64,000 bases of DNA, from assembly GCF_005886145.1 (NCBI RefSeq), contig NZ_CP040504.1, forward strand, positions 806,001-870,000, in the 5' to 3' direction. The notes beneath the pieces are model-generated. The model saw only the letters and a program-made list of their open reading frames with translations. It made no database searches and was not told the DNA's origin. The position numbers were made by a program, and so were the translations under genes. The DNA comes from Neisseria sp. oral taxon 014 str. F0314 (GTDB lineage Bacteria > Pseudomonadota > Gammaproteobacteria > Burkholderiales > Neisseriaceae). Below, piece after piece: positions 3,155-57,237 of the stretch (positions are counted from its first letter, which is position 1; every line of letters starts with the position of its first letter).

Positions 3155-4846
3155 TCATTTAGCCCAGTTTTTCTTCTTACTGGTTTTACCTATGCCTGGA
3201 TTGAAGCTGTTGGTCGGGTCGAGTTTGCGGTAGAACTGTTTGAGCGCGGGTTTCGCTTCGTATAAATGGCCAACGTTGTGTTCGGCCGGATATTGCGCGC
3301 CGCGTTGGTCTAAGAGATGCAGCATTTCGTGTTCCAATGCCATGCAGTCGTTGCCTTTTTTGATGATGTAATCCTGATGGAAAACGTGGCACATGAAATG
3401 TCCGTAGTAAAGTTTGTGGATAATTTTATTGTCGATTTCCGACGGCAGTTTTTCAAACCAATCGCGGTCGTCGCGGCGCAGGGCGATGTCCAGTGCAACC
3501 AAATCTTCCACTTCGTCGTCATGCACGGCGCGGTAGCGGATGGCGGCGGAGGCGACGGCAAAACGGTGCAGCATGGCGGCTTGGGTTTCTTCGGCGTTGC
3601 ATTCGAAAAACGCGCCGCCGTGGTGCGCAAAATACTCTTTCAGGAACGCACGCGCTTCATCGACGCCTTTTCCGCCCATTTTCAGAATTAAATGGTGTTC
3701 GTATTTGTCGCGGTAATCGCGCATGGATTTGGGCAGGTGGTCGGGCAGGTATTTGCTGACGAACTGCATGGCTTTGTCGGAAAAATGTTTGGGCAGGAAG
3801 CTGACTTTTTTGCCGAATCGGTCAACTTTGGCTTTGAAATCAAATAATTTCGGCAGTTGGTGCGTACCGAATTTTTTGATGACGTAGAACGTGTCTTTGC
3901 CGTACACATCGGCAATATCGAAAGCGTCGCGATGGATGTATTCGCCGGAAACGGGCAGGTTTTCAAATTCGCCCAAGGCGGCGCGGCGGATGTCGGTCAA
4001 TTCATTAATATCGTTAGTGCCGATGTAGAACACCGCGGTTTGCTTCTCTTGCGGGAAGGTGTCCAAGCGGACGGCGAAAACCATCAGCTTGCCCGCGCAA
4101 CCGGACGCTTCATAATGGCGCGCGGGGTCGGCGTTGAAACGCGCGGCGGTAGGCTCGTCCACTTGGCGAACATGGTCGCAATAGGCGTGGTCGTGTCCTT
4201 TGCCTGCATCTTGCGTGATGTCTTTTCTCTGATAATGATGGCCTTGAAGATTGGTCAGGATTTCTTCGGGCGTGTCGCCCAAATCTATACCCAAATGGTT
4301 GACCAGCTCCAGTTTGCCCTCTTCGTTGATTTGGGCGAACAGCGCCATTTCTGTGTAGGCAGGGCCGCGCTGCACCAACGCGCCGCCGGAGTTGTTGCAC
4401 ACGCCGCCCAAGACGGACGCGCCGATGCAGGATGAACCGATGACCGAATGCGGTTCGCGCCCCAAAGGTTTCAGCAGTAATTCGAGCTGGTTCAGGGTCG
4501 AGCCGGGCAGGCAGACGACTTGTTCGTTGTTGTTGATGGTTTGGATGATGTTCATCCGCATGGTGTTCACGATCACGATGTCGCGGTCGTAATCGTTGCC
4601 GTCAGGGGTCGAGCCGCCTGTCAAACCGGTATTCGCCGCCTGCGTAATCACAATCACGTCCGCTTCAACGCAAGCCTGCAAAATTTTCCACATTTCTAGA
4701 ATGGTTCCGGGGCGCACCACCGCCAACGCCTTGCCCTCGCCGAAACGGTAGCCTTGGCGGTATTGTTCGGTTTTCGCGGGATCGGTGATAATGTATTTTT
4801 CGCCGACGGTTTGGGTCAGGCTGCTGATTAATTGCGAGACGGTCAT
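3155..4846 (-). CDS. dld: quinone-dependent D-lactate dehydrogenase
   Basis: 563 residues, close to the usual length of membrane-associated Dld, an FAD flavoprotein that oxidises D-lactate to pyruvate and passes electrons to the quinone pool. The N-terminal FAD-binding type 4 domain shows TQAANTGLTGGSTP at 69-82 and the SVIGSSCIGASVLGGVCNNS stretch. The C-terminal half carries the Dld-specific membrane-binding and cap regions, with HRDAFDIADVYGKDTFY and a KKGNDCMALEHEMLHLLD stretch. ATG 4846 has AAGGAG 8 nt upstream, so the 20-residue upstream extension was rejected. Monocistronic: pgeF lies upstream with an 84-nt gap and a DUS terminator follows. Confidence 0.93.
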   Translation of the reverse strand: MTVSQLISSLTQTVGEKYIITDPAKTEQYRQGYRFGEGKALAVVRPGTILEMWKILQACVEADVIVITQAANTGLTGGSTPDGNDYDRDIVIVNTMRMNIIQTINNNEQVVCLPGSTLNQLELLLKPLGREPHSVIGSSCIGASVLGGVCNNSGGALVQRGPAYTEMALFAQINEEGKLELVNHLGIDLGDTPEEILTNLQGHHYQRKDITQDAGKGHDHAYCDHVRQVDEPTAARFNADPARHYEASGCAGKLMVFAVRLDTFPQEKQTAVFYIGTNDINELTDIRRAALGEFENLPVSGEYIHRDAFDIADVYGKDTFYVIKKFGTHQLPKLFDFKAKVDRFGKKVSFLPKHFSDKAMQFVSKYLPDHLPKSMRDYRDKYEHHLILKMGGKGVDEARAFLKEYFAHHGGAFFECNAEETQAAMLHRFAVASAAIRYRAVHDDEVEDLVALDIALRRDDRDWFEKLPSEIDNKIIHKLYYGHFMCHVFHQDYIIKKGNDCMALEHEMLHLLDQRGAQYPAEHNVGHLYEAKPALKQFYRKLDPTNSFNPGIGKTSKKKNWAK

Positions 4847-4930
4847 AATGCGCTCCTTGGGATTTTCATAGTTCAAACAGTAATGATAAATATTTATTGC
4901 AGGCAAGGGATTTTATGGAGTAAACAATTA

Positions 4931-5704
4931 TCACTGTTTCTCCAACCAAACCACACTGACCATGCGTCCCGTCTGTCCTTCACGGCGATAAGAGAAAAAG
5001 GTGTTTCTTTCTAAGACCGTACAATAGTCTCCGCCATAAATCATGCTGACGCCTTCACGCTGCAAAATCATTCTGGCCAAAGCATAAATATTGGCAAGGA
5101 ATTTACCGCCGCCAATGCTTTCAAACGCACTTTCCGATTCGGGCATGGATTGGTAAAACACATCGACGACATCCCGCCCAACCTCGAACGCATCAGGACC
5201 AATGGCGGGACCGAGATAAGCCATAATTTCAATAGGAGCGACATTCATCGCACGAATAGTATTTTGCAGTATCCCGCCCGCCAAGCCTTTCCAGCCCGCA
5301 TGTGCAGCGGCAACAACCGTTCCGGCCTTGTCGCAAAACAAGACCGGAAGGCAGTCGGCGGTCATACTTGCGCAGGCAGCACGCCCCGTATTGTCCACGG
5401 ACGCATCGGCATCTGTAAGTCGCTCCAAAGCATCGGTTGCCAACACCACTTTATTACTATGTATTTGGTTCAGATACGCTACCGGCACGCTGATTTGCTG
5501 CTGTACAATTTCTCTGTTATGAGTGACGTGCTCGGGATTGTCTCCGACATGGATACCGACATTCAGACTTCGGTATACTCCGTTGCTTACTCCGCCGTTT
5601 CGAGTGGTTAACAAAGTTTTTACATTATCCGGTGCCGGCCAGTCGGCATGGAGAAAATTACTTTTCACAGCGGCAATACCCAAGCTTTCGCTTAATGTTT
5701 TCAT
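4931..5704 (-). CDS. pgeF: peptidoglycan editing factor PgeF (YfiH/LACC1 family)
   Basis: 257 residues of the Cu-oxidase_4/YfiH family. Members remove or hydrolyse aberrant L-Ser from the peptidoglycan precursor UDP-MurNAc (PgeF in E. coli), and several act on purine nucleosides. The metal-binding residues are visible: His82 in LNQIHSN, Cys118 in MTADCLPVLFCD (114-125), and His135 in AAHAGWKGLAGG (133-144). The start at 5704 follows AAAGAAAG. rluD lies upstream on the same strand, the common rluD-yfiH order in proteobacteria, separated here by a DUS pair. Confidence 0.88.
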   Translation of the reverse strand: MKTLSESLGIAAVKSNFLHADWPAPDNVKTLLTTRNGGVSNGVYRSLNVGIHVGDNPEHVTHNREIVQQQISVPVAYLNQIHSNKVVLATDALERLTDADASVDNTGRAACASMTADCLPVLFCDKAGTVVAAAHAGWKGLAGGILQNTIRAMNVAPIEIMAYLGPAIGPDAFEVGRDVVDVFYQSMPESESAFESIGGGKFLANIYALARMILQREGVSMIYGGDYCTVLERNTFFSYRREGQTGRMVSVVWLEKQ

Positions 5705-8476: not shown

Positions 8477-11366
<2,890 letters not shown>

Positions 11367-46439: not shown

Positions 46440-46837
46440 TCGTATGCTCTCGAACCGGAATTTAAAGATGCGCTATTATAGCCATGTTTTTAACCGCATA
46501 CTTTCTTTGTTTTTATTTCGGCTCCGATACCTATCCGCACGTTCCTGCAAAATTTCCCGCAGGCCGTCTGAAACTTTGCCGCGGGCAGCGCGAACAAATA
46601 AAAACGTTGCGGCAAACCCTGCCCGCCATATAGATGCCTGATAAATTGTTGACAATCAGGCCGTCTGAAACTATATTTTACCGCTTAAACTCTCTGTTGG
46701 TTTCAGACGGCCAAGTCCGTCATTTCTCACGCCGCCCCGTGTTTTTCGCACCCGTCTTATGGCAAAATGGCGTTATCGGGAAACCAGCGGAACCACGCAC
46801 TTGCCGAATTCCATTTCTTACTTTTTAGGAGCCGAAA
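46440..46837. other. divergent aroE-glnA region with DUS words
   Basis: 398 bp. It contains a single AG-DUS at 46561-46572, a pair at 46658-46712 with a long AT-rich loop, and the glnA leader with ribosome site TTTAGGAG. No convincing promoter or ORF can be named. Confidence 0.45.
46658..46712. repeat. inverted AG-DUS pair upstream of glnA
   Basis: AGGCCGTCTGAA (46658-46669) and TTCAGACGGCC (46702-46712), 32-nt loop. It lies between divergent genes, so it is not an obvious terminator. Confidence 0.65.
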
Positions 46838-48256
46838 ATGTCCATCAAAAACGCCGTCAGGCTGATTGAAGAAAGCGAAGCCCGCTTCGTAGATTTGCGC
46901 TTTACCGATACCAAAGGCAAGCAGCACCACTTCACCGTCCCCGCACGCATCGTCCTCGACGACCCTGAAGAGTGGTTTGAAAACGGTCAGGCGTTTGACG
47001 GCTCGTCCATCGGCGGCTGGAAAGGCATTCAGGCATCCGACATGCAGTTGCGCCCCGACCCTGCAACCGCCTTCATCGACCCCTTCTACGACGACACCAC
47101 CGTCGTCCTCACCTGCGACGTCATCGACCCCGCCGACGGTCAAGGTTACGACCGCGACCCGCGCTCCATCGCCCGCCGCGCCGAAGCCTACCTCAAATCC
47201 TCCGGCATCGGCGACACGGCATACTTCGGCCCCGAACCCGAATTCTTCGTCTTCGACGGCGTAGAGTTTGAAACCGATATGCACAAAACCCGTTACGAAA
47301 TCACGTCCGAAAGCGGCGCGTGGGCAAGCGGCCTGCACATGGACGGTCAAAACACCGGCCACCGCCCCGCCGTCAAAGGCGGCTACGCCCCCGTCGCCCC
47401 GATTGACGCCGGACAAGACCTGCGCTCCGCCATGGTGAACATTTTGGAAGAACTCGGCATCGAAGTCGAAGTCCACCACGCCGAAGTCGGCACCGGCAGC
47501 CAAATGGAAATCGGTACGCGCTTCGCCACCTTGGTCAAACGCGCCGACCAAACCCAAGACATGAAATACGTCATCCAAAACGTCGCCCATAACTTCGGCA
47601 AAACCGCCACCTTCATGCCCAAACCCATCATGGGCGACAACGGCAGCGGTATGCACGTCCACCAATCCATCTGGAAAGACGGTCAAAACCTGTTCGCAGG
47701 CGACGGCTATGCCGGCTTGAGCGACACCGCGCTCTACTACATCGGCGGCATCATCAAACACGCCAAAGCCCTGAACGCGATTACCAATCCGTCCACCAAC
47801 TCCTACAAACGCCTCGTACCGCACTTTGAAGCGCCGACCAAACTCGCCTACTCTGCCAAAAACCGTTCCGCGTCCATCCGCATCCCGTCCGTGAACAGCA
47901 GCAAGGCTCGCCGCATCGAAGCGCGTTTCCCCGACCCGACCGCCAACCCATACTTGGCGTTCGCCGCCCTGCTGATGGCGGGTTTGGACGGCATTCAAAA
48001 CAAAATCCATCCGGGCGACCCGGCCGATAAAAACCTCTACGACCTGCCGCCGGAAGAAGACGCACTCGTTCCAACCGTCTGCGCCTCTTTGGAAGAAGCC
48101 CTCGCCGCCCTCAAAGCCGACCACGAATTCCTGCTGCGCGGCGGCGTGTTCAGCAAAGACTGGATCGACAGCTACATCGCCTTCAAAGAAGAAGACGTAC
48201 GCCGCATCCGTATGGCGCCGCATCCGTTGGAATTTGAAATGTATTACAGCCTGTAA
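46838..48256 (+). CDS. glnA: glutamine synthetase type I
   Basis: 472 residues. GSI motifs are present: [17 protein letters not shown], the [12 protein letters not shown] metal site, [20 protein letters not shown], and [18 protein letters not shown]. The adenylylation loop NLYDLPPEE, with its Tyr about 75 residues from the C-terminus, implies control by GlnE. The enzyme makes glutamine from glutamate and ammonium as a dodecamer. Ribosome site TAGGAG. A long DUS terminator follows. Confidence 0.96.
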
Positions 48257-48281
48257 AACCGGATTTTAGGTTTCCGGCTTA

Positions 48282-48325
48282 ATAGAGAGGCCGTCTGAAA
48301 AACAAATTTCAGACGGCCTCTCTAT
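48282..48325. terminator. extended inverted AG-DUS pair after glnA
   Basis: ATAGAGAGGCCGTCTGAAA...TTTCAGACGGCCTCTCTAT, a stem of about 19 bp that extends beyond the DUS on both sides. Confidence 0.88.
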
Positions 48326-48488: not shown

Positions 48489-48599
48489 CCATCAGGAAAA
48501 ATTACCGTTTATCATATACAATTTGCAAAAATACTACACAAAATATTTACAAAAATAACAGACAGAACAATAGATTACAAAATAAGAAACAATATCGCG

Positions 48600-48628
48600 T
48601 TGCAACAGTCAGCCTAAAGAATAATAAT
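48600..48628 (+). promoter_or_regulatory. candidate promoter of the chaperone-usher operon
   Basis: TTGCAA (48600-48605), 17-bp spacer, AATAAT (48623-48628), about 107 bp upstream of the pilin gene in a very AT-rich stretch. Confidence 0.4.
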
Positions 48629-48734
48629 GCCATCACATACCGTTCAGGCACAAAAACTGACCGCGTAAAACATCATACAGGCTCAAAAACCTGTTTTTCT
48701 AACACTTAAAAACGTTCATTACGGAGATAATCAT

Positions 48735-49370
48735 ATGAAAACCCGATTCACCTTAACCGCTCTGGCTTTGACTTCTGCTCTCGCATTCAGCACTTCTGCG
48801 ATGGCGGCATCCAATCCTGCAACGGGAGAATTCAACGTTACAATCAAACTGACAGGCGTGTGTGAAGTCGAGACCAACAGCGGTCTCACCACTGCCATCA
48901 ATAGCGATAACCATGCATCAGCAGGTGCCGATATTAACTTTGGTACACATGAAGCTCAAGCAAACAGTGCCCTTATCACTGGTAAAAGTACAGCCGGAAC
49001 AGGGGAAGGCCTGAATATTAAATGCAGTAAAAACACCCCATTCTCTATTGGTCTTCTTCCGCAAAATTCTGGAGCGACTACTGCAGGGGCCGGTGTAATG
49101 ACTGGCGTTAATTTAAACGGCGGTTCGCATTCCGACACAGTTAAATACCAGCTTTATCAACCTGCAACCTCTGCAGGAGCAATTGCAGACAACGGTTCCC
49201 ATACATCAAAACCTTGGGGTAACGATAAAGGGACCAATACTGTAGATTTAATCGGTAAAGGTTTAAATGACGTGATAAAAGTACCCGTCTATGCAGACGT
49301 ACCAGCTGGCGAATTAGATAAAACACCTGATCGTTATCAAGACCGTGTTACCGTTAGCGTTTCTTATTAA
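48735..49370 (+). CDS. spore coat U domain major pilin subunit (archaic chaperone-usher)
   Basis: 211 residues. The signal peptide ends at AMA (22-24), and one SCPU domain follows: VTIKLTGVCEVET, DINFGTHEAQ, LNIKCSKNTPFSIGLLPQNS, VKYQLYQP, and the ending DRYQDRVTVSVSY. The paired cysteines likely form a disulfide; the fold lacks its last strand until donor-strand complementation. It is comparable to CsuA/B, the major pilin of archaic pili. Ribosome site GGAGATAA. First gene of the operon, followed 32 nt later by the chaperone. Confidence 0.82.
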   Translation: MKTRFTLTALALTSALAFSTSAMAASNPATGEFNVTIKLTGVCEVETNSGLTTAINSDNHASAGADINFGTHEAQANSALITGKSTAGTGEGLNIKCSKNTPFSIGLLPQNSGATTAGAGVMTGVNLNGGSHSDTVKYQLYQPATSAGAIADNGSHTSKPWGNDKGTNTVDLIGKGLNDVIKVPVYADVPAGELDKTPDRYQDRVTVSVSY

Positions 49371-49402
49371 TCCCGATTAAAACAAAACAAACCAAAAACC
49401 CC

Positions 49403-50128
49403 ATGCAAAAAACAATCAGCACACTAGTCGGTATGCTGGCGGCGGCAACGGCTTTACACAGCCAAGCCGCCGGTTTGCAGGTCAGTCCGACATCTTTGTC
49501 CCTGCCCGCCAAACAGCGGGCGGGCATTTTTACTTTGGGCAATACGGGCAGCGAACCGTTAACGGCGCAAGTGCGCGTTTACGGTTGGTCGCAGGACGAA
49601 AAAGGGAACGAAGTCCTTACTCCCACTAATGCGGTGATTGCCAGCCCGCCTATGGTCAAACTCGAAGCGGGAGCCAAGCAACAGTTCCGCGTGATACGCA
49701 TCAGGCCGTCTGAAAAACCGGTGGAAGAAGCCTACCGCCTGATTGTGGACGAACTGCCCGCACCGCAGGCCAAACCGCGCAAAGGTTTGCAATTTGTCAT
49801 GCGCTATTCCCTGCCGCTGTTTACCAATGTCCAAAACAATGCCGAAGCCAAGTTGCACTGGCGCGCGGAAAAAACCGCCAACGGAAAAACGGTGCTGGTC
49901 GCCGAAAACAGCGGTACCGCCTACGCGCAACTGAGCAATATCAACCTTCAGACGGCCTCAGCCAAAGAACCGCTGACTTTGGCCGGCGGCTTGGCCGGTT
50001 ATGTATTGCCCGGCAATACATGGAAACGCGAACTGGACGTTTCTCCCGCCGTATTCAGCCAAGGCCGTCTGAATGCCACGGTAAACGGCGGCGCAACCCA
50101 GCCGGAGGTCCGGTTTGCTACCCCTTGA
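49403..50128 (+). CDS. periplasmic pilus chaperone (PapD-like, archaic type)
   Basis: 241 residues. Signal peptide with cleavage near residue 23 (LHSQAA-GLQVSPT). The two Ig-like domains are seen as LQVSPTSLSLPAKQRAGIFT, RVYGWSQDEKGNE, and FRVIRIRPSEKPVEEAYRLI, then the VMRYSLPLFTN segment. It would stabilise the pilin by donating a strand and deliver it to the usher. A DUS within the gene (near 49700) encodes IRPSEKP. The usher start overlaps its end. Confidence 0.82.
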   Translation: MQKTISTLVGMLAAATALHSQAAGLQVSPTSLSLPAKQRAGIFTLGNTGSEPLTAQVRVYGWSQDEKGNEVLTPTNAVIASPPMVKLEAGAKQQFRVIRIRPSEKPVEEAYRLIVDELPAPQAKPRKGLQFVMRYSLPLFTNVQNNAEAKLHWRAEKTANGKTVLVAENSGTAYAQLSNINLQTASAKEPLTLAGGLAGYVLPGNTWKRELDVSPAVFSQGRLNATVNGGATQPEVRFATP

Positions 50129-52583
50129 CCCCAAGATACGGCTCAGTCGGCTGACTGCCGCACTGATGCTGTGTCTGTACGCCCTGCCCACGCCTGCACA
50201 GGACATCCTGCCGCAGGCCGCGCCCGTTGCCTACGAGCAAGCGTGGCTGACCGTTTATCCTCAGGTAACGGTCAACGGCAGTGTGCGCGACGGCACCGCC
50301 CCCTTTATGTCGCGCAACGGCGTACTGTATGCCCGCACCGAATCGCTGCGTGCCTACGGTGTCGTATTGCCGTCTGAAACCGCTGCCGAAGCAGGCAAAG
50401 GCGGAGTTACGCCTGAAATACAGGACGGTGCGTCCGCACCCGGCGCAGGCGTATGGTTCGATCTCGCCTCCGTGCCCGGCTTACAGGCAAAATACGATGC
50501 CGCCACGCAAATCCTGGACATTACCGCGCCGTTGGAATGGCAGCCCGATCTGAAAACCACCCGTATCGGCGAACAAAAAGAAAACCGCTACCCAATCGGC
50601 CGCCCGGGTTTTGCAGCCGTGTTGAACTATGACACCAATTTTTCGCGCAACAATTCCGGCGGCGGCACCCAAGGCGTATTCGGCGAACTGCGCCTGACCA
50701 CGCCTTGGGGTTATCTGAACCACACCCAGTTTGCCAACCGCAGCCATGCCCGCGACGGCGAAAACCATCGCAGCGACGCCCGCTTGGATACCTACTGGCG
50801 CACGGTTTGGCCGGAGCGCGGCCTGTCGCTGACCGTCGGCGACACACTGACCGGGCAGTTAGGTTCGTGGGGCGGAACCCGCATCGGCGGCATCAAACTT
50901 TCCCGCACCTACAATACGCAACCGTGGAAACAGACCGCACCGCTGCGCTCCTATCTCGGCCGCAGTACCCTGCCCGGCACCGTCGACCTCTATCTTGACG
51001 GCGTGAAACAGATGAGCCGCGACATTGCGGCAGGCGAATACGAACTGGTCCTCCCCCCCACCATCAGCGGCCGCAGCAACGCGCAAGTCGTCGCCACCGA
51101 CGTTTTAGGGCGTACCGTCGTCGTCGATATGCCGCTTTACGGCGGCAGCGGCCTGCTGGCCAAAGGCCTTAACGAATGGTCGCTTGAAGCAGGCTATGTC
51201 CGCCGTGACTACGGCGTCCGTTCCGCAAAATACCAGTCCGATCCTGCCGCCAGCGGCACCCTGCGCTACGGCCTGACCAACTTCCTGACCGCGCAAATCC
51301 ACGGTGAGGCCGCACACGGCTATCGCCAAATCGGCATTTCCGCCGACACCCTGCTCGGCTCGTTGGGCCAAATCAACCTGACTCATGCCCAAAGCCGCTT
51401 CGCCGGACAAACCGGACAACGCAGCAGCGCGTTTTTCAGCACACAATGGCACCAAACCTCTTTCAGTGCAGGCTGGAACAAATCCGACGGCCGTTTCGCC
51501 GAGCTGGGCGATACCGCCTATGACGACCGACGCCCAACCGACGACAGACACGGCAGCACCTCCGCTTCCGTATCCGCAGGATGGAGCAGCGACAAACTCG
51601 GTTCGTTCAGCCTGTCGTACCTGCATTCGCGCACTGAAGGACGGCCTGCCGACAGCATCGGTTCTTTCAGCTGGAGCCGCAATCTGAAAAAACGCGCCAG
51701 CCTCTATACCAGCGCCGCCAAAAATTTCAACGGCAAACACGAACTGAGCCTCTATGCAGGTTTGTCCGTCAACTTGGACAAAGGCTATTCGGCTTCGGCA
51801 GGCGCAGGCCGTAACGGCCGCGACAACAGCTACCAAATGACGCTGAACAAAACCGGCAGCGGTCTGAACAGCACCAACTGGGGCTTGAGCTGGCAGCAAA
51901 CCGAAGACACGACGGGACGTCGAAAAAATACGCTTAACGCCAACATCCGTTACCACAGCGTTTACGGCGACGGATGGGCAAACACCTACAGCCACGCCGA
52001 CAGTAACAACTGGAACGCAGGCTGGCGCGGCGGCATCGTGTTGATGGGCGGCGGCCTGTTCGCCACCCGCCAAGTCAACGACAGTTTCGCCGTCGTCAGC
52101 ACCGGCGGCATGGCGGACGTTCCCATCCGCGCGGGCGGCATGCCTGTAGGCAAAACCAACCGCAGGGGGCTGGCACTTATCCCCAATCTCTCCGCCTACC
52201 AGAAAAACACCGTCAGCGTTGATATTACCGAGTTGCCGCTGGACGTACAGCTTGAACACACCGTCGCCGAAATCGCCCCGTCCGAACGCTCCGGTATGCG
52301 CGTCGAATTTAAAATACACCGTACCCGATCCGCCACCATGACCTTGAAAGACGGACAAAACCAATGGCTGCCGGGCGGCGGCACCATCGCCGATGCACAA
52401 GGCGACCCCGTTGCCGTTACCGGCTTCGACGGCAAAACCTATATCGAAAACATGCAAGAGGGTAAAAACAACTTCACGGTTACACTGCCTGAAAACGGCG
52501 GCAACTGTTCGTTTGAAGCCGATTACCCCGAAGAACGCAATCCGGACACTCTGCCGGATTTGGGAGACATCATATGCAAATGA
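50115..52583 (+). CDS. outer membrane fimbrial usher
   Basis: 822 residues. The start is TTG at 50115, with GGAGG 7 nt upstream inside the chaperone gene, overlapping its last 14 nt. A signal peptide (SRLTAALMLCLYALPTPAQ) follows. Conserved usher features: VTVNGSVRDG, VLNYDTNFSRNN, GDTLTGQLGSWGGTRIGGI, SRSTLPGTVDLYLDG region, and C-terminal DGKTYIENMQEGKN. It forms the secretion pore and assembles pilin-chaperone complexes. It ends overlapping the tip gene by 10 nt. The family is PF00577-like, archaic branch. Confidence 0.82.
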   Translation: MLPLDPKIRLSRLTAALMLCLYALPTPAQDILPQAAPVAYEQAWLTVYPQVTVNGSVRDGTAPFMSRNGVLYARTESLRAYGVVLPSETAAEAGKGGVTPEIQDGASAPGAGVWFDLASVPGLQAKYDAATQILDITAPLEWQPDLKTTRIGEQKENRYPIGRPGFAAVLNYDTNFSRNNSGGGTQGVFGELRLTTPWGYLNHTQFANRSHARDGENHRSDARLDTYWRTVWPERGLSLTVGDTLTGQLGSWGGTRIGGIKLSRTYNTQPWKQTAPLRSYLGRSTLPGTVDLYLDGVKQMSRDIAAGEYELVLPPTISGRSNAQVVATDVLGRTVVVDMPLYGGSGLLAKGLNEWSLEAGYVRRDYGVRSAKYQSDPAASGTLRYGLTNFLTAQIHGEAAHGYRQIGISADTLLGSLGQINLTHAQSRFAGQTGQRSSAFFSTQWHQTSFSAGWNKSDGRFAELGDTAYDDRRPTDDRHGSTSASVSAGWSSDKLGSFSLSYLHSRTEGRPADSIGSFSWSRNLKKRASLYTSAAKNFNGKHELSLYAGLSVNLDKGYSASAGAGRNGRDNSYQMTLNKTGSGLNSTNWGLSWQQTEDTTGRRKNTLNANIRYHSVYGDGWANTYSHADSNNWNAGWRGGIVLMGGGLFATRQVNDSFAVVSTGGMADVPIRAGGMPVGKTNRRGLALIPNLSAYQKNTVSVDITELPLDVQLEHTVAEIAPSERSGMRVEFKIHRTRSATMTLKDGQNQWLPGGGTIADAQGDPVAVTGFDGKTYIENMQEGKNNFTVTLPENGGNCSFEADYPEERNPDTLPDLGDIICK

Positions 52584-53698
52584 TAATGAAAAAAGGCCGT
52601 CTGAAAACTGCAAACCGCCTTTTGCAGCAGACTGCATTGCCTGCCACATTCGGGCTGCTGTCGCTGTTTGGAGAACCGGCTTGGGCAGACAGCGGCGTAG
52701 CCGGAAGGTTTGTGCAATGTACGGCGAGGGTACAAGGCAACGGAACCTTCAACGGCAATCCTGCCTTGGTATTCGGAAGCCAAGGCAACGGCGTCAACCT
52801 TCTGAACAATAACCAGCCGGAAGATATTCAAGCTACCATCCACTACCAATGCACCAATAACGATGCTTATACCGTAAAAGTACGCCTGTGCTTCAATATT
52901 GACGGTGGACGCAGATCGCCAAACATATATACCCCCAGAAAAATGGTTCATAGCAGGAATAACGCCCAAACACTGCAACTATCATTACTTAAACCCGATA
53001 ATACCAATTGGGGAACGGATAACACTGCAAACTCCCCCAGCAGCTTTGGAACCGGTGTCTTTCATATCGGACTCAACAGCTCGGTCAGCGGAACCATCCC
53101 CATCAAAGCCAGATTGATTAGCGGGCAAAACAACGCCATTCCCACAAACTTAGGATCTTACCTCGCAGACTTTACCAGCGGTTCCACCGCCTTAAGCTGG
53201 AAGGCTGAACGTTATGCTATAGGTCCCAACCCTTCAGATTGTGGAAACATCTTGACCAACAACCGCTTCCCCTTCGTCGTCCAAGCCCATGTCGCGCCCG
53301 TCTGCGAAATCACCGCCGCCGACGACATTGACTTCGGTACGCACACCGCAGGCAGTACGGATCTGAAACAGTCGGGCAACCTGACCGTCCGCTGCACCAA
53401 CAGCACCCCCTATTCCATCGGGCTGGTTCCCTCCAACGGCAACCAAGATGGCAAAGGCGAAATGAAATCCCTCAACCATGCCGCGACCAATACCGACAAA
53501 GTCCCTTACCAATTACGCAAATCTTCCTCATCAAATGCCCATTTCTGGGGCAACAACGAAAGCGGTTCGGGCAGCGTCAAATCCAATCAGACCGGCGACG
53601 GCAACGAACAGACGCATACTGTCTATGCGGAAGTGAGGAGCACCGACTACACCCCCGACGAATACCGCGACAAAGTAACGGTGCATGTGAAGTATTGA
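52574..53698 (+). CDS. two-domain spore coat U tip subunit / adhesin
   Basis: 374 residues. The signal peptide's basic n-region (KKGRLKTANR) is encoded by a DUS embedded in the gene; cleavage is near AWA-DSG (about 37). An N-terminal SCPU-like domain (about 45-210) with Cys pairs QCTARVQG, YQCTNN and RLCFN is the candidate receptor-binding domain. A C-terminal SCPU domain (about 235-374) mirrors the major pilin (VCEITAADDIDFGTHTAG, LTVRCTNSTPYSIGL, EYRDKVTVHVKY). The layout resembles CsuE, the tip adhesin of archaic pili. Ligand unknown. Last gene of the operon. Confidence 0.8.
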   Translation: MQMIMKKGRLKTANRLLQQTALPATFGLLSLFGEPAWADSGVAGRFVQCTARVQGNGTFNGNPALVFGSQGNGVNLLNNNQPEDIQATIHYQCTNNDAYTVKVRLCFNIDGGRRSPNIYTPRKMVHSRNNAQTLQLSLLKPDNTNWGTDNTANSPSSFGTGVFHIGLNSSVSGTIPIKARLISGQNNAIPTNLGSYLADFTSGSTALSWKAERYAIGPNPSDCGNILTNNRFPFVVQAHVAPVCEITAADDIDFGTHTAGSTDLKQSGNLTVRCTNSTPYSIGLVPSNGNQDGKGEMKSLNHAATNTDKVPYQLRKSSSSNAHFWGNNESGSGSVKSNQTGDGNEQTHTVYAEVRSTDYTPDEYRDKVTVHVKY

Positions 53699-53927: not shown

Positions 53928-54965
53928 CTATTCCCAAATATTCGCCTTTTCCACTTCCCGCCAAGCATCGAGAATCAGGCTGCCGTCGTTGTTCTTCAGC
54001 AATGCAGCATCGGAAAGCATACGCCGCCAGGTTCGGGCGTTTTTCAATCCGTGCATGAGGCCGAGGCTGTGGCGGACGATATGGCGCAGAATAGTGCCGC
54101 GTCCGGCCTGAATCTGCGCGCGGCTGTATTCGTATAGCTTCAGAACCAAATCGGCATACTCGACCGGCGGGCTGCTTTCGCCGTAAAACAACCGGTCCCA
54201 GTCGCGCATAATCATCGGATTATGGTAGGCTTCGCGGCCGACCATAACGCCGTCAACATGCTTTAAGTGTTCCGAAATTTGTTCGTTGGTGGTAATCCCG
54301 CCGTTGATGATGATTTCAAGTTCGGGAAAATCTTGTTTGAGACGGTAGACATAATCGTATTTGAGCGGCGGCACTTCGCGGTTTTCTTTTGGCGACAGGC
54401 CGTCCAACCATGCGTTGCGCGCGTGGACGATGAAAGTCCGACAGGCCGTTTTTTCATACAGCGTACCGACGAACTCGGCGGCGACACCGTATTCCGTCTG
54501 GCGGTCGACACCGATGCGATGTTTGACGGTAACAGGAATATCAACGGCATCCTGCATGGCGTTGAGGCAATCGGCAACCAATCCGACCTCGTTCATCAGA
54601 CATGCACCAAACGCGCCTTTTTGTACGCGCGGGCTGGGGCAGCCGCAATTAAGGTTGATTTCGTTGTAGCCGTATTCTTCGGCAGCCTTGGCGGCTTTGG
54701 CCAAATCGGCCGGTTCGCTGCCGCCCAGTTGCAGGGCGACGGGCTGCTCGCCTTCGTTAAACATTAAAAAACGGTCTTTATCACCGTAGATGATGGCTCC
54801 GGCATTAATCATTTCGCTATAAAGCCATGCGTTTTCAGTAATTTGTCGCGCCATATAACGAAAATGGCGGTCCGTCCAGTCGAGCATGGGCGCAACACAT
54901 ACCCGCCTTGTTCCTTTATAATCAATAACTTCCTTGTTTATTAACGGAATTTCGTAATTTTCCAT
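53928..54965 (-). CDS. dusA: tRNA-dihydrouridine(20/20a) synthase DusA
   Basis: 345 residues. Dus motifs are APMLDWTDR (25-33, FMN barrel start), NCGCPSPRVQKGAFGACLM (106-124) with the catalytic Cys109, and the NGGITTNEQI and GVMVGREAYHNP strands. It reduces U20/U20a of tRNA with FMN and NADPH. The first 20 or so residues (MENYEIPLINKEVIDYKGT) differ from typical DusA N-termini and lie next to a prophage integrase, so they may be phage-supplied. Gene otherwise intact. Confidence 0.93.
   Translation of the reverse strand: MENYEIPLINKEVIDYKGTRRVCVAPMLDWTDRHFRYMARQITENAWLYSEMINAGAIIYGDKDRFLMFNEGEQPVALQLGGSEPADLAKAAKAAEEYGYNEINLNCGCPSPRVQKGAFGACLMNEVGLVADCLNAMQDAVDIPVTVKHRIGVDRQTEYGVAAEFVGTLYEKTACRTFIVHARNAWLDGLSPKENREVPPLKYDYVYRLKQDFPELEIIINGGITTNEQISEHLKHVDGVMVGREAYHNPMIMRDWDRLFYGESSPPVEYADLVLKLYEYSRAQIQAGRGTILRHIVRHSLGLMHGLKNARTWRRMLSDAALLKNNDGSLILDAWREVEKANIWE
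54867..54893. other. candidate prophage attachment core in the 5' end of dusA
   Basis: The codons for APMLDWTDR (54867-54893) are the region known to be used by dusA-associated phage integrases. A matching direct copy at the far prophage end, outside the window, would define attL/attR. The assignment is by position only. Confidence 0.3.
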
Positions 54966-55028
54966 ACTGATTATTCTAGTCTATTTAGTATATTTTTAAC
55001 CCATTTTGCGTTTTAACGTGTACCATAC

Positions 55029-55063
55029 TGCCACCATAATTTTAAACATTGGGAATGGTGGCA
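55029..55063. promoter_or_regulatory. inverted repeat over the integrase start
   Basis: TGCCACCAT (55029-55037) and ATGGTGGCA (55055-55063), perfect 9-bp arms, 17-bp spacing. The right arm ends on the A of the integrase ATG, so the hairpin could hide the start or act as an operator or recombinase arm site. Confidence 0.35.
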
Positions 55064-56220
55064 TGGGCACAATCTCAAAACGCATCAATCCTTCCGGTAC
55101 AACCGTCTATCGGGCGGTTATCCGTATCCGAAAAAACGGCTATCCGAATTTTACCGAAAGCCGAACGTTCAGTAAAAAATCAATGGCGGCGGAATGGGTA
55201 AAGCGCAGAGAAGCGGAAATAGAATTAAACCCTGATATTCTGTTCGGTCAGAAAAATAAACTGTTCCCCACTCTACATGAAGCCGTGGACCGTTATCTAA
55301 CGGAAGCCGCCAACGCCGGACGCTCGAAGCAAATGGGCTTGCGGTTTTTATCATCATTCCCCATCGGCAGCAACCGCATTAATCGGCTGCGCCGCGCGGA
55401 CTTCGCCGAACATGTCATGTTGCGCCGTCGGGGCATGCCGCAAGATGGCATCAAGCCGATTGCAGCATCTACCGCGCTGCAAGAACTGCAATATATCAGA
55501 ACGGTTCTGAAACACGCATTTTACGTTTGGGATATGCCAGTAAGCTGGCAGGAATTGGACTTTGCAGCGGAAGGCTTGGGTAAATCAGGAATCATAGCGA
55601 AATCAACGAAACGGAACCGCTTGCCAACAAGCGACGAATTGCAACGCCTAACCACATTTTTTTATCAAAATTGGACTAACTGGCGGCAAACAAATCTGAT
55701 TCCGATGCACCTGATTATGTGGCTTGCAATCTACACGACCAGACGGCAAGACGAAATATGTCGGATGATGCTGGACGACTACCACCCGGACAGCGCGGAA
55801 TGGCTGATACGCGACGTCAAGCATCCGCAGGGCAGCAAAGGGAATGACAAAAAGTTCGACGTCCGCCCGCAGGCGTTACCCGTGATTGCGGCCCTATCGG
55901 AACCCGAAACCCGCCGCCGGATGCTGAAATGCAACGGAACGCCGAACAGCTTGGTTCCACTTGACCCCAAAAGCATCAGCGCGGCATTTACCCGCGCCTG
56001 TCATGTACTGGGCATTGATGATTTGCGCTTTCACGACCTGCGACATGAAGGCGCGACGCGGCTTGCCGAAGACGGCGCAACCCCGCCGCAGATGCAGATG
56101 GTAACTTTACATAACACTTGGGCAAGTTTAGAACGATACGTCAATCTGCGCAAACGACCGCAGCGGTTGGAATTTGACGAAGCAATAAAGAATGCCGAAA
56201 ACGACTTGAATTTATCCTGA
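55063..56220 (+). CDS. int: tyrosine recombinase / prophage integrase (dusA-associated)
   Basis: 385 residues from ATG 55063. A SAM-like core-binding domain (about 70-165) precedes the catalytic domain with Arg227/228 in TTRRQDEI, the HDLRH box (324-328), His350 in VTLHNTW, and the nucleophile Tyr359 in LERYVNL. An Arg/Lys-rich N-terminus suits arm-site binding. It lies about 100 bp from dusA's start, facing away, as in known dusA-targeting prophages. It converges with the lysis genes. A longer frame begins at 55006. Confidence 0.9.
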   Translation: MGTISKRINPSGTTVYRAVIRIRKNGYPNFTESRTFSKKSMAAEWVKRREAEIELNPDILFGQKNKLFPTLHEAVDRYLTEAANAGRSKQMGLRFLSSFPIGSNRINRLRRADFAEHVMLRRRGMPQDGIKPIAASTALQELQYIRTVLKHAFYVWDMPVSWQELDFAAEGLGKSGIIAKSTKRNRLPTSDELQRLTTFFYQNWTNWRQTNLIPMHLIMWLAIYTTRRQDEICRMMLDDYHPDSAEWLIRDVKHPQGSKGNDKKFDVRPQALPVIAALSEPETRRRMLKCNGTPNSLVPLDPKSISAAFTRACHVLGIDDLRFHDLRHEGATRLAEDGATPPQMQMVTLHNTWASLERYVNLRKRPQRLEFDEAIKNAENDLNLS

Positions 56221-56232
56221 TCCGTATTTCTA

Positions 56233-56252
56233 GGGCGGTATCTTGCCGCCCC
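56233..56252. terminator. hairpin between int and the lysis genes
   Basis: GGGCGG / CCGCCC stem with a 7-nt loop in the 44-bp gap between convergent genes; no U-tract on the plus strand. Confidence 0.4.
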
Positions 56253-56264
56253 AGAAATGCGGTT

Positions 56265-56774
56265 TTATTTTGACTGCTCAATTACCGTTTGTCCATATGC
56301 CTGCCATTCCTTTAAATCCGCGGCTTGTCCGTCGGCAGTTTCTGCCAGTCCAGCATATTCAGCCGCGCACTTTCCGAAAAGCTGCCAACCATAGGAATCT
56401 GCCGCGCCATCAGATGCGGCGGCGGTTGTAGCGGTTGCGGGCATGTTTCGGACGCTACTTTGATGTTTGGCGTACTGCTGCAAGCGGTCAAGCTCAAAAC
56501 GCATAGCAGTAACAGTTTGTTTCGCATTTTCTTTTTCCTTTTCAAGTTTGGTTTGGCGGTCGGCCAGCGCAGCAGCCGCTTTTTGCTCCGCTTCACGCGC
56601 CGTTTTCGCCTGTTCGATATAGCCGTCTTTCAGACGGTTTGAAATTTCGGCGGCCATCGCATCGCGCCCGCGTTGATATTTCTCCGCACGGTCAAAATGC
56701 CGCGCAGCAAAAATAACGGCCAACAACGCCACTATCGCTAGTGGCTTCCAGTATTTCAGTAAATCGCTAACCAT
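56265..56774 (-). CDS. Rz: phage inner-membrane spanin subunit (Rz-like)
   Basis: 169 residues. An N-terminal membrane segment (about 10-24, KPLAIVALLAVIFAARHF) is followed by a long Ala/Glu/Lys-rich coiled coil (about 30-110), the layout of i-spanins that with an outer-membrane partner disrupt the outer membrane at lysis. ATG 56774 overlaps the endolysin's last 8 nt; GAAGGAG lies upstream. It carries the o-spanin gene nested in another frame. Confidence 0.78.
   Translation of the reverse strand: MVSDLLKYWKPLAIVALLAVIFAARHFDRAEKYQRGRDAMAAEISNRLKDGYIEQAKTAREAEQKAAAALADRQTKLEKEKENAKQTVTAMRFELDRLQQYAKHQSSVRNMPATATTAAASDGAADSYGWQLFGKCAAEYAGLAETADGQAADLKEWQAYGQTVIEQSK
56312..56527 (-). CDS. Rz1: phage outer-membrane lipoprotein spanin (Rz1-like), nested in Rz
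   Basis: 71 residues in a different frame, entirely inside the Rz-like gene. The signal peptide MRNKLLLLCVLSLTAC ends in lipobox LTAC (13-16), so Cys16 is lipidated; the mature part is Pro-rich (CPQPLQPPPHL). A nested, lipidated, Pro-rich small protein is the hallmark of Rz1. The start at 56527 follows an AAAAAG-rich stretch. This is one of the few overlapping genes in the window that is clearly real. Confidence 0.75.
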   Translation of the reverse strand: MRNKLLLLCVLSLTACSSTPNIKVASETCPQPLQPPPHLMARQIPMVGSFSESARLNMLDWQKLPTDKPRI

Positions 56775-57237
56775 TTCTGAAAAACTCCTTCTGTTCTGAC
56801 GACCGCCTGTTTGCAAGACCGGGTATTACCCTACCGCCTGCTTTATTCCACATTGCGAACGCATCACATGCAGCTTTGTATTTGCGTTCATTCAAACGGC
56901 GAACAACCGTTGATTTTGCAAATGCGGCAACGCCGATGTTGTAACACAAAGATACACAGGCATTGAATTGCGATTGAGTCAAAGGGACTTTCACAACTTC
57001 TTTTACGCCGTTCTCATACGATTTTATTTGATTCAGAAATTCCGCTTTGATTTCTTCATCCGTCATCGTATCGCCCATGCACACTTTATGACCTGCACGC
57101 GCGCCCAGCGTATAACGCACAAAACCAATCCCAATAGTCGGAATGCGCACACTATCCAAGTAAGAGTGATTGCGCTTACCCTCCCAGCCGACAATCAGTT
57201 CATAACCGCTGCCGTCCAGATGTAGATTTTCATTCAT
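56767..57237 (-). CDS. phage endolysin, GH24 lysozyme (T4-lysozyme-like)
   Basis: 156 residues. The catalytic triad Glu19-Asp28-Thr34 lies in WEGKRNHSYLDSVRIPTIG, with further conserved TQSQFNACVSLCYNIG and NKAGGRVIPGLANRR. It cleaves the MurNAc-GlcNAc bond. No N-terminal signal-anchor is present, so a holin is needed for export; candidates lie just upstream. AAGGAAAG precedes ATG 57237. A DUS pair separates it from the upstream gene. Confidence 0.93.
   Translation of the reverse strand: MNENLHLDGSGYELIVGWEGKRNHSYLDSVRIPTIGIGFVRYTLGARAGHKVCMGDTMTDEEIKAEFLNQIKSYENGVKEVVKVPLTQSQFNACVSLCYNIGVAAFAKSTVVRRLNERKYKAACDAFAMWNKAGGRVIPGLANRRSSEQKEFFRNG

Follow-up and report, generated by a model that had tools for sequence, protein, structure and literature searches.

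An archaic chaperone-usher pilus operon in Neisseria with apparently exchanged pilin and tip modules

Does the genus Neisseria, whose surface biology is centred on type IV pili and phase-variable outer-membrane adhesins, also encode a fibre of an unrelated kind, and how would such a fibre vary between species? The question is raised by a locus of Neisseria sp. oral taxon 014 str. F0314, situated in a 64,000-nucleotide stretch of contig NZ_CP040504.1 (positions 806,001 to 870,000), the whole of which is called the window below. A preliminary description of this DNA had claimed four tightly coupled genes for a pilin, a chaperone, an usher and a tip protein with two spore coat U (SCPU) domains, and its coordinates proved exact. 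The features, numbered within the window, are as follows.

48522..48734, + strand: 5' leader, probable promoter region, with a match to the leader of sicca-group operons
48735..49370, + strand: pilin with a single SCPU domain (211 aa; PF05229, 43.1 bits)
49403..50128, + strand: PapD-like chaperone, archaic (241 aa; PF00345, PapD_N, 67.4 bits)
50115..52583, + strand: outer-membrane usher (822 aa counted from a TTG start; PF00577, PF13953)
52574..53698, + strand: two-domain tip, putative adhesin (374 aa; PF05229 in two stretches)

The domain content of these genes is clear from Pfam profiles. The pilin domain scores 43.1 bits against a cut-off of 22.4, the usher matches both Usher (126.9 bits) and PapC_C (30.2 bits), and the two SCPU stretches of the tip sum to 95.6 bits, so that the profile check confirms an SCPU domain in both the first and the last gene. 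A whole-genome profile search placed just three SCPU domains above the cut-off in the 2.5-Mb genome, all within the operon (the pilin holding one and the tip the other two), and a genome search returned no further usher. The earliest possible start of the usher is a TTG that makes a 14-nt overlap with the chaperone gene, and a TTG or GTG usher start overlapping the chaperone recurs in 14 of 14 Neisseria operons; in the window the tip and usher genes overlap by 10 nt. Across 134-139 nt the leader matches those of three of the four sicca-group operons (G023, G026 and G019) at about 76% of nucleotides and is absent from the other, G007, while a promoter scan of the leader gave 5 hits against 3.7 expected in shuffled sequence, which is not above the shuffles. 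A C7 tract in the usher was considered as a phase-variation tract and rejected, since it is unique to the window, the 13 other ushers having A7 tracts or none.

The class of the system was read from a maximum-likelihood tree of 30 ushers: 14 from Neisseria, six from SCPU operons of other genera, and classical ushers along with those of other Neisseriaceae. The Neisseria ushers and the six from other genera form one set with support of 100/100, and outside it fall FimD, ElfC, HtrE, FaeD and six other Neisseriaceae ushers. Rows of a quick tree that were left out of the 30-usher tree are EcpC and G051 (very long branches), G049 and AggC; the quick tree gave the archaic set a support of 99, with EcpC, of the alternative type, adjoining it on a very long branch, and long branches persist in the 30-usher tree for FaeD, E. 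cloacae and A. vitis. For G049 (locus L072, another genus) the usher alone was taken into account. The usher thus lies in the archaic clade, not in another secretion family, and with all four components found, the complete archaic (spore coat U) system of the preliminary description is borne out. Ushers outside the archaic clade were also seen in other Neisseriaceae, at loci L056 (G006), L057 (G041), L073, L074, L076 and L077, that of G006 being additional to its archaic usher.

The chaperone gives the same indication. Among solved structures CsuC matches it best (E 3e-19), ahead of CupB2 (2.3e-6). According to PMC4654587, the archaic carboxylate anchor consists of R89, Y196 and R174, and the donors are V110, F112, M114 and Y116. 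The window chaperone keeps the archaic donor-strand positions and two of the three anchor residues, R174 being replaced by Gln, and in the alignment equivalents of R89, Y116 and Y196 are present, and that of R174 is Gln, in all 14 Neisseria chaperones. Outside Neisseria, five of six archaic chaperones hold R or K at the R174 position, and the one from Psychrobacter has Gln there as well. Classical chaperones in the alignment have R89 in none of five cases and Tyr at 196 in one of five; EcpB, of the alternative type, has all three of R89, Y196 and R174. Judged by the usher tree and its SCPU domains, the operon is a member of the archaic (sigma-clade, spore coat U) chaperone-usher class, with an anchor that matches in two of three residues.

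The two SCPU proteins appear to differ in what they can contribute to a fibre. Counted back from Cys43, its first mature Cys, the window pilin has a large hydrophobic residue at each of positions -4, -6 and -8, spaced as in the donor strand of CsuA/B. This N-terminal pattern, with the Cys pair of archaic pilins, was found by script in 13 of the 14 pilins and by eye in the last (G002), whose script row was dropped after a signal-peptide Cys had been picked. Ahead of the first mature Cys of the window tip there is no such pattern, and among the 10 of 13 tips that could be counted (G044, G011 and G012 being uncounted, with a signal-peptide Cys picked by the script) none of the three positions is hydrophobic in eight and one of the three in two. 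The missing donor strand implies that the tip should accept a strand, not give one, and would therefore cap the fibre. The tip C-domain matches CsuE (E 1e-5), and the pilin found no match up to E 1 among solved structures. The window pilin gene has a GC content of 46.0% and a GC3 of 36.0%; third positions are AT-rich in the pilin genes generally (GC3 below 46% in 12 of 14, the exceptions being G011 and G012), with chaperone and usher GC3 at 50-77%.

How widely is this operon carried? Counting the window's own, 14 of 46 genus genomes have an usher ortholog (at least 48% identity) accompanied by SCPU genes, or 14 out of 41 if the count is confined to genomes of good quality. Gene order is identical in all 14 carriers, with the tip of G007 interrupted, and a distribution of this breadth with an unvarying order excludes chance. 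A fifteenth genome, G041, has a distant usher only (22% identity). At the level of the family some usher match was found in 21 of 83 genomes, several of them distant, and an ortholog at 48% occurs in G049, outside the genus. At the level of the taxonomic class, an SCPU survey found the domain in 5 of 67 genomes, one of them the window's own, a number that does not allow operon layouts to be ranked.

These counts bear on several earlier statements. The operon had been called unexpected in Neisseria, which does not agree with its presence in nearly a third of the genus genomes, and database names are already of the Csu or fimbrial kind ('Csu type fimbrial protein [Neisseria sicca]', 'fimbrial biogenesis chaperone [Neisseria wadsworthii]'); automated annotation, that is, already labels such Neisseria proteins Csu type. 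Among the open-access papers listed by full-text search (subscription papers lying outside this scope), titles and abstracts give no description of a Neisseria system of this kind, and such an operon goes unmentioned in passages from PMC5717340, PMC10210955, PMC7643975 and PMC4471445. The operon had also been described as a Csu operon reduced to the minimum. That idea had to be dropped, because the pilin-chaperone-usher-tip layout is found in 5 of 6 archaic operons of other genera (Psychrobacter, A. variabilis, E. cloacae, Caballeronia and A. vitis; six operons hand-picked from two plasmid listings with incomplete gene tables), and no reduction within Neisseria is needed. Of these, A. variabilis has one SCPU gene more, on the opposite strand, and the remaining operon, from K. 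variicola, has a second pilin gene. Nor are the orthologs syntenic, as had been expected: when ORFs are called mechanically in about 4-6 kb of flank on either side, the 14 carriers show about eight different neighbourhoods. In G019, G023 and G026 the operon sits between an alcohol-dehydrogenase-like gene and asd, two genes that are unlinked in the window's genome.

The variation among carriers is concentrated in the pilin and tip. Out of 91 genome pairs, eight have a chaperone and usher averaging at least 93% nucleotide identity, a cut that was set after seeing the data. The pilins are less than 65% identical in six of these eight pairs, the tips less than 80% identical in three of the five pairs that have both tips intact, and at least one of the two modules is clearly different in seven of the eight. 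As six of the pairs come from four genomes, they represent three independent groups only. The divergence is not universal either, because G025 and G040, just below the cut (chaperone 92.7%, usher 89.7%), share both pilin (95.8%) and tip (98.1%). The tip is shared and the pilin different in G023-G026 (91.6% and 60.6%) and in G006-G045 (99.0% and 64.1%), and in G011-G012 the pilin is shared (95.4%) and the tip different (77.2%); going by these alleles, pilin and tip switch independently between pairs. Where an allele is shared, its dS is close to that of the machinery (G023-G007 and G011-G012 pilins, G023-G026 tip) or below it (tips of G006-G045 and G025-G040). Clusters at 90% identity, counted by eye, number 6 for the chaperone (at least 73% identity, 99% query coverage), 18 for the pilin at near-full length (20 if two shorter clusters are counted; at least 42% identity), and 33 for the tip (at least 46% identity, 99% query coverage), counts that are supportive at most because search sensitivity and cut-offs differ. 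Related species, in short, have near-identical export machinery with exposed fibre parts that have apparently often been swapped.

Larger pieces of the operon seem to move as well. Identity between G006 and G045 is only 81.7% for asd and 73.4% for dusA; their chaperones, by contrast, are 93.6%, their ushers 97.4% and their tips 99.0% identical, so by these comparisons one operon segment is common to two distant species. G040, the nearest carrier to G006 by dusA (95.6%), has a tip 59.2% and a pilin 87.3% identical to those of G006. The contrast with asd, dusA and G040 indicates that either G006 or G045 had its chaperone-to-tip segment replaced and kept its own pilin. The glnA genes of G006 and G045 are 93.4% identical, so other genes travel too. 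The genomes involved use different dialects of the uptake word (DUS): wadDUS copies number 2349 in G006, 2375 in G025 and 2365 in G040, and 62 in G045. Of the ten DUS inside the operons of the three wadDUS genomes, eight are canonical, which would fit import across a dialect border, though the flanks are mixed too, canonical DUS being frequent there at 9 to 10 per locus.

Uptake words also bear on how long the operon has been resident in the window's lineage. Those within it are:

49705..49714, + strand: DUS in the chaperone gene
49947..49956, - strand: DUS in the chaperone gene, its codons shared with mucDUS in four of four sicca-group operons
50064..50073, + strand: DUS in the chaperone gene, its codons shared with mucDUS in four of four sicca-group operons
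50369..50378, + strand: DUS in the usher gene
52596..52605, + strand: DUS opening the tip gene (GRLK codons), with a mucDUS match in four of four sicca-group operons

DUS had been reported earlier for the chaperone and tip genes, where they are indeed found, with one more in the usher. Their density is ordinary, as there are five DUS 10-mers in the operon and 71 across the 64-kb window. Three of the five align with DUS in all four sicca-group operons (G007, G019, G023 and G026): a pair lies at matching codons of the chaperone gene, and the third over the GRLK codons with which the tip gene begins. They are spelled AGGCCGTCTGAA in the window and AGGTCGTCTGAA in the sicca-group operons, each spelling being that of the local dialect (dialects as in PMC3630211). 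Uptake words at homologous codons in group-specific dialects support long residence in the window's lineage. The earlier view that the operon is long resident and not newly acquired therefore stands for this lineage, with the qualification from G006 and G045 that the operon also moves between species.

Could the divergence of pilin and tip have arisen in place, by accelerated point mutation under immune selection and with no exchange of alleles? It is concentrated in the exposed subunits, as this would have it, and replacement differences between G026 and G019 are high (pN 0.33 for the pilin and 0.30 for the tip). Silent differences between the same two genomes are hard to explain in this way: pS is 0.607 for the pilin and 0.572 for the tip (0.742 in its N-domain, 0.326 in its C-domain), near that of unrelated alleles, and 0.061 and 0.083 for the adjacent chaperone and usher. 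The islands of divergence are also sharp-edged, identity in 100-nt windows dropping from nearly 100% to about 43-58% within the pilin and to 47-51% within the tip N-domain before it recovers to 98%, with a smaller dip at the tip end and in the spacer behind it, and the two modules switch independently among pairs. In-place evolution is accordingly very improbable, and allele exchange would be the better explanation of the pilin and tip divergence.

A somewhat less improbable, though still unlikely, alternative is that the window operon arrived recently, as an acquired or a mobile island. Its neighbourhood is unlike that of the 13 other carriers, its pilin has low GC, though as in 12 of the 14 pilins, a phage-type integrase lies 1.3 kb downstream, beyond dusA, and glnA and asd are 96-98% identical to the sicca group, so imports do occur nearby and housekeeping genes have been exchanged too in the same genomes. 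Against this, chaperone and usher are 78.5-80.4% identical to the sicca group at the nucleotide level, as diverged as dusA (79.7-81.1%) and two stretches upstream of glnA (79-81%), three DUS occupy homologous codons and are written in the dialect proper to each group, and operon and integrase are on opposite sides of dusA; a recent island in the window's species was rejected. Two further alternatives concern function. The SCPU proteins could form a non-fibrous surface coat, as do spore coat proteins secreted by chaperone-usher in Myxococcus; the domain name and export machinery are in common, and the fibre is a prediction from the genes. That is about as doubtful as in-place evolution, for the donor-strand pattern of the pilin and a CsuE-like tip that lacks it point to ordered, end-capped polymers. 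Least probable of all is a decaying remnant without function, a reading that can draw on the IS genes and missing leader of G007 and on the absence of the operon from 32 of 46 genus genomes, but which has to contend with open reading frames in 13 of 14 genomes and a pN/pS of about 0.1 in the machinery genes.

Several observations were made on the flanks and damaged copies. The window's glnA (46824-48301) is about 97% identical to those of G019, G023 and G007, with the stretches upstream of it and dusA at 79-82%, and in two of three comparisons this import patch stops at a DUS pair near 48290/48308. The tyrosine integrase (55006-56220) starts 41 nt past the 5' end of dusA, a minus-strand gene, and is followed by an Rz-like gene; the stretch 53928-56816 is probably the border of a prophage inserted at dusA. 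In G007 (L044) two copies of an IS4/5-type gene pair lie in opposite orientation (4219-4966 and 9251-9998), one just upstream of the pilin and the other breaking the tip gene. G024 has a second, broken glnA (C1:14234-15648) and a second, identical-scoring dusA near the same contig end, with intact glnA and dusA near the other, probably overlapping ends of an unclosed circle.

The favoured reading, to which we give a probability of roughly 0.75, is that of a complete archaic pilus operon with a conserved chaperone-usher base, on which the pilin and the tip N-domain are modules exchanged by recombination. Gene content, clade, key residues, module divergence and the segment common to distant species are read from the DNA; what follows is a model. 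The chaperone would hold pilins in the periplasm by donor-strand complementation, and the usher would thread them outward, so that the single pilin polymerises into a fibre capped by the two-domain tip, which has no donor strand of its own and whose N-domain may bind a surface. Homologous recombination in the conserved sequence on either side would swap the mature pilin and the tip N-domain from strain to strain and from species to species, most likely by way of DUS-guided natural transformation, and immune or receptor selection could keep the alleles diverse. A broader proposal, that the operon is a genus-wide exchange platform on which transformable Neisseria trade pilin and adhesin-domain cassettes over a chaperone-usher base, with uptake words of the local dialect adjoining, has about an even chance of being correct.

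If this proposal holds, commensals would diversify a non-type-IV pilus through a shared gene pool. This would be unlike PilE, which diversifies by intragenomic gene conversion; a whole-genome search found no silent SCPU copies in the window's genome. A predicted second fibre, of unrelated kind and encoded by roughly one genus genome in three, would count as a colonisation factor that has gone unstudied. The part to pursue is the way its pilin and tip modules reassort while the base stays conserved, which would amount to a natural experiment on the diversification of surface antigens by transformation.

The closest known system is the Csu pilus of Acinetobacter baumannii (CsuA/B, A, B, C, D, E), a thin, zigzag fibre according to PMC9452303. 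Both have an SCPU pilin, a CsuC-like chaperone, an archaic usher and a two-domain tip, with a CsuE-like C-domain in Neisseria. The Neisseria operon differs in its single pilin gene, without equivalents of the minor pilins CsuA and CsuB, in a pilin that is not recognisable against the solved Csu chains, and in the replacement of anchor residue R174 by Gln. 'Csu-type', as the operon had been called, is thus apt as a class name and does not describe a strict Csu operon. Classical pili (FimD, HtrE, ElfC, FaeD and the other Neisseriaceae ushers) share the PapD-like chaperone and usher families, but their ushers fall outside the archaic clade and classical chaperones lack R89. In gene order the Neisseria operon is identical to the archaic operons of Psychrobacter, Acinetobacter variabilis, Enterobacter, Caballeronia and Agrobacterium, whose ushers belong to the same clade, though at just about 27-32% identity to those of Neisseria.
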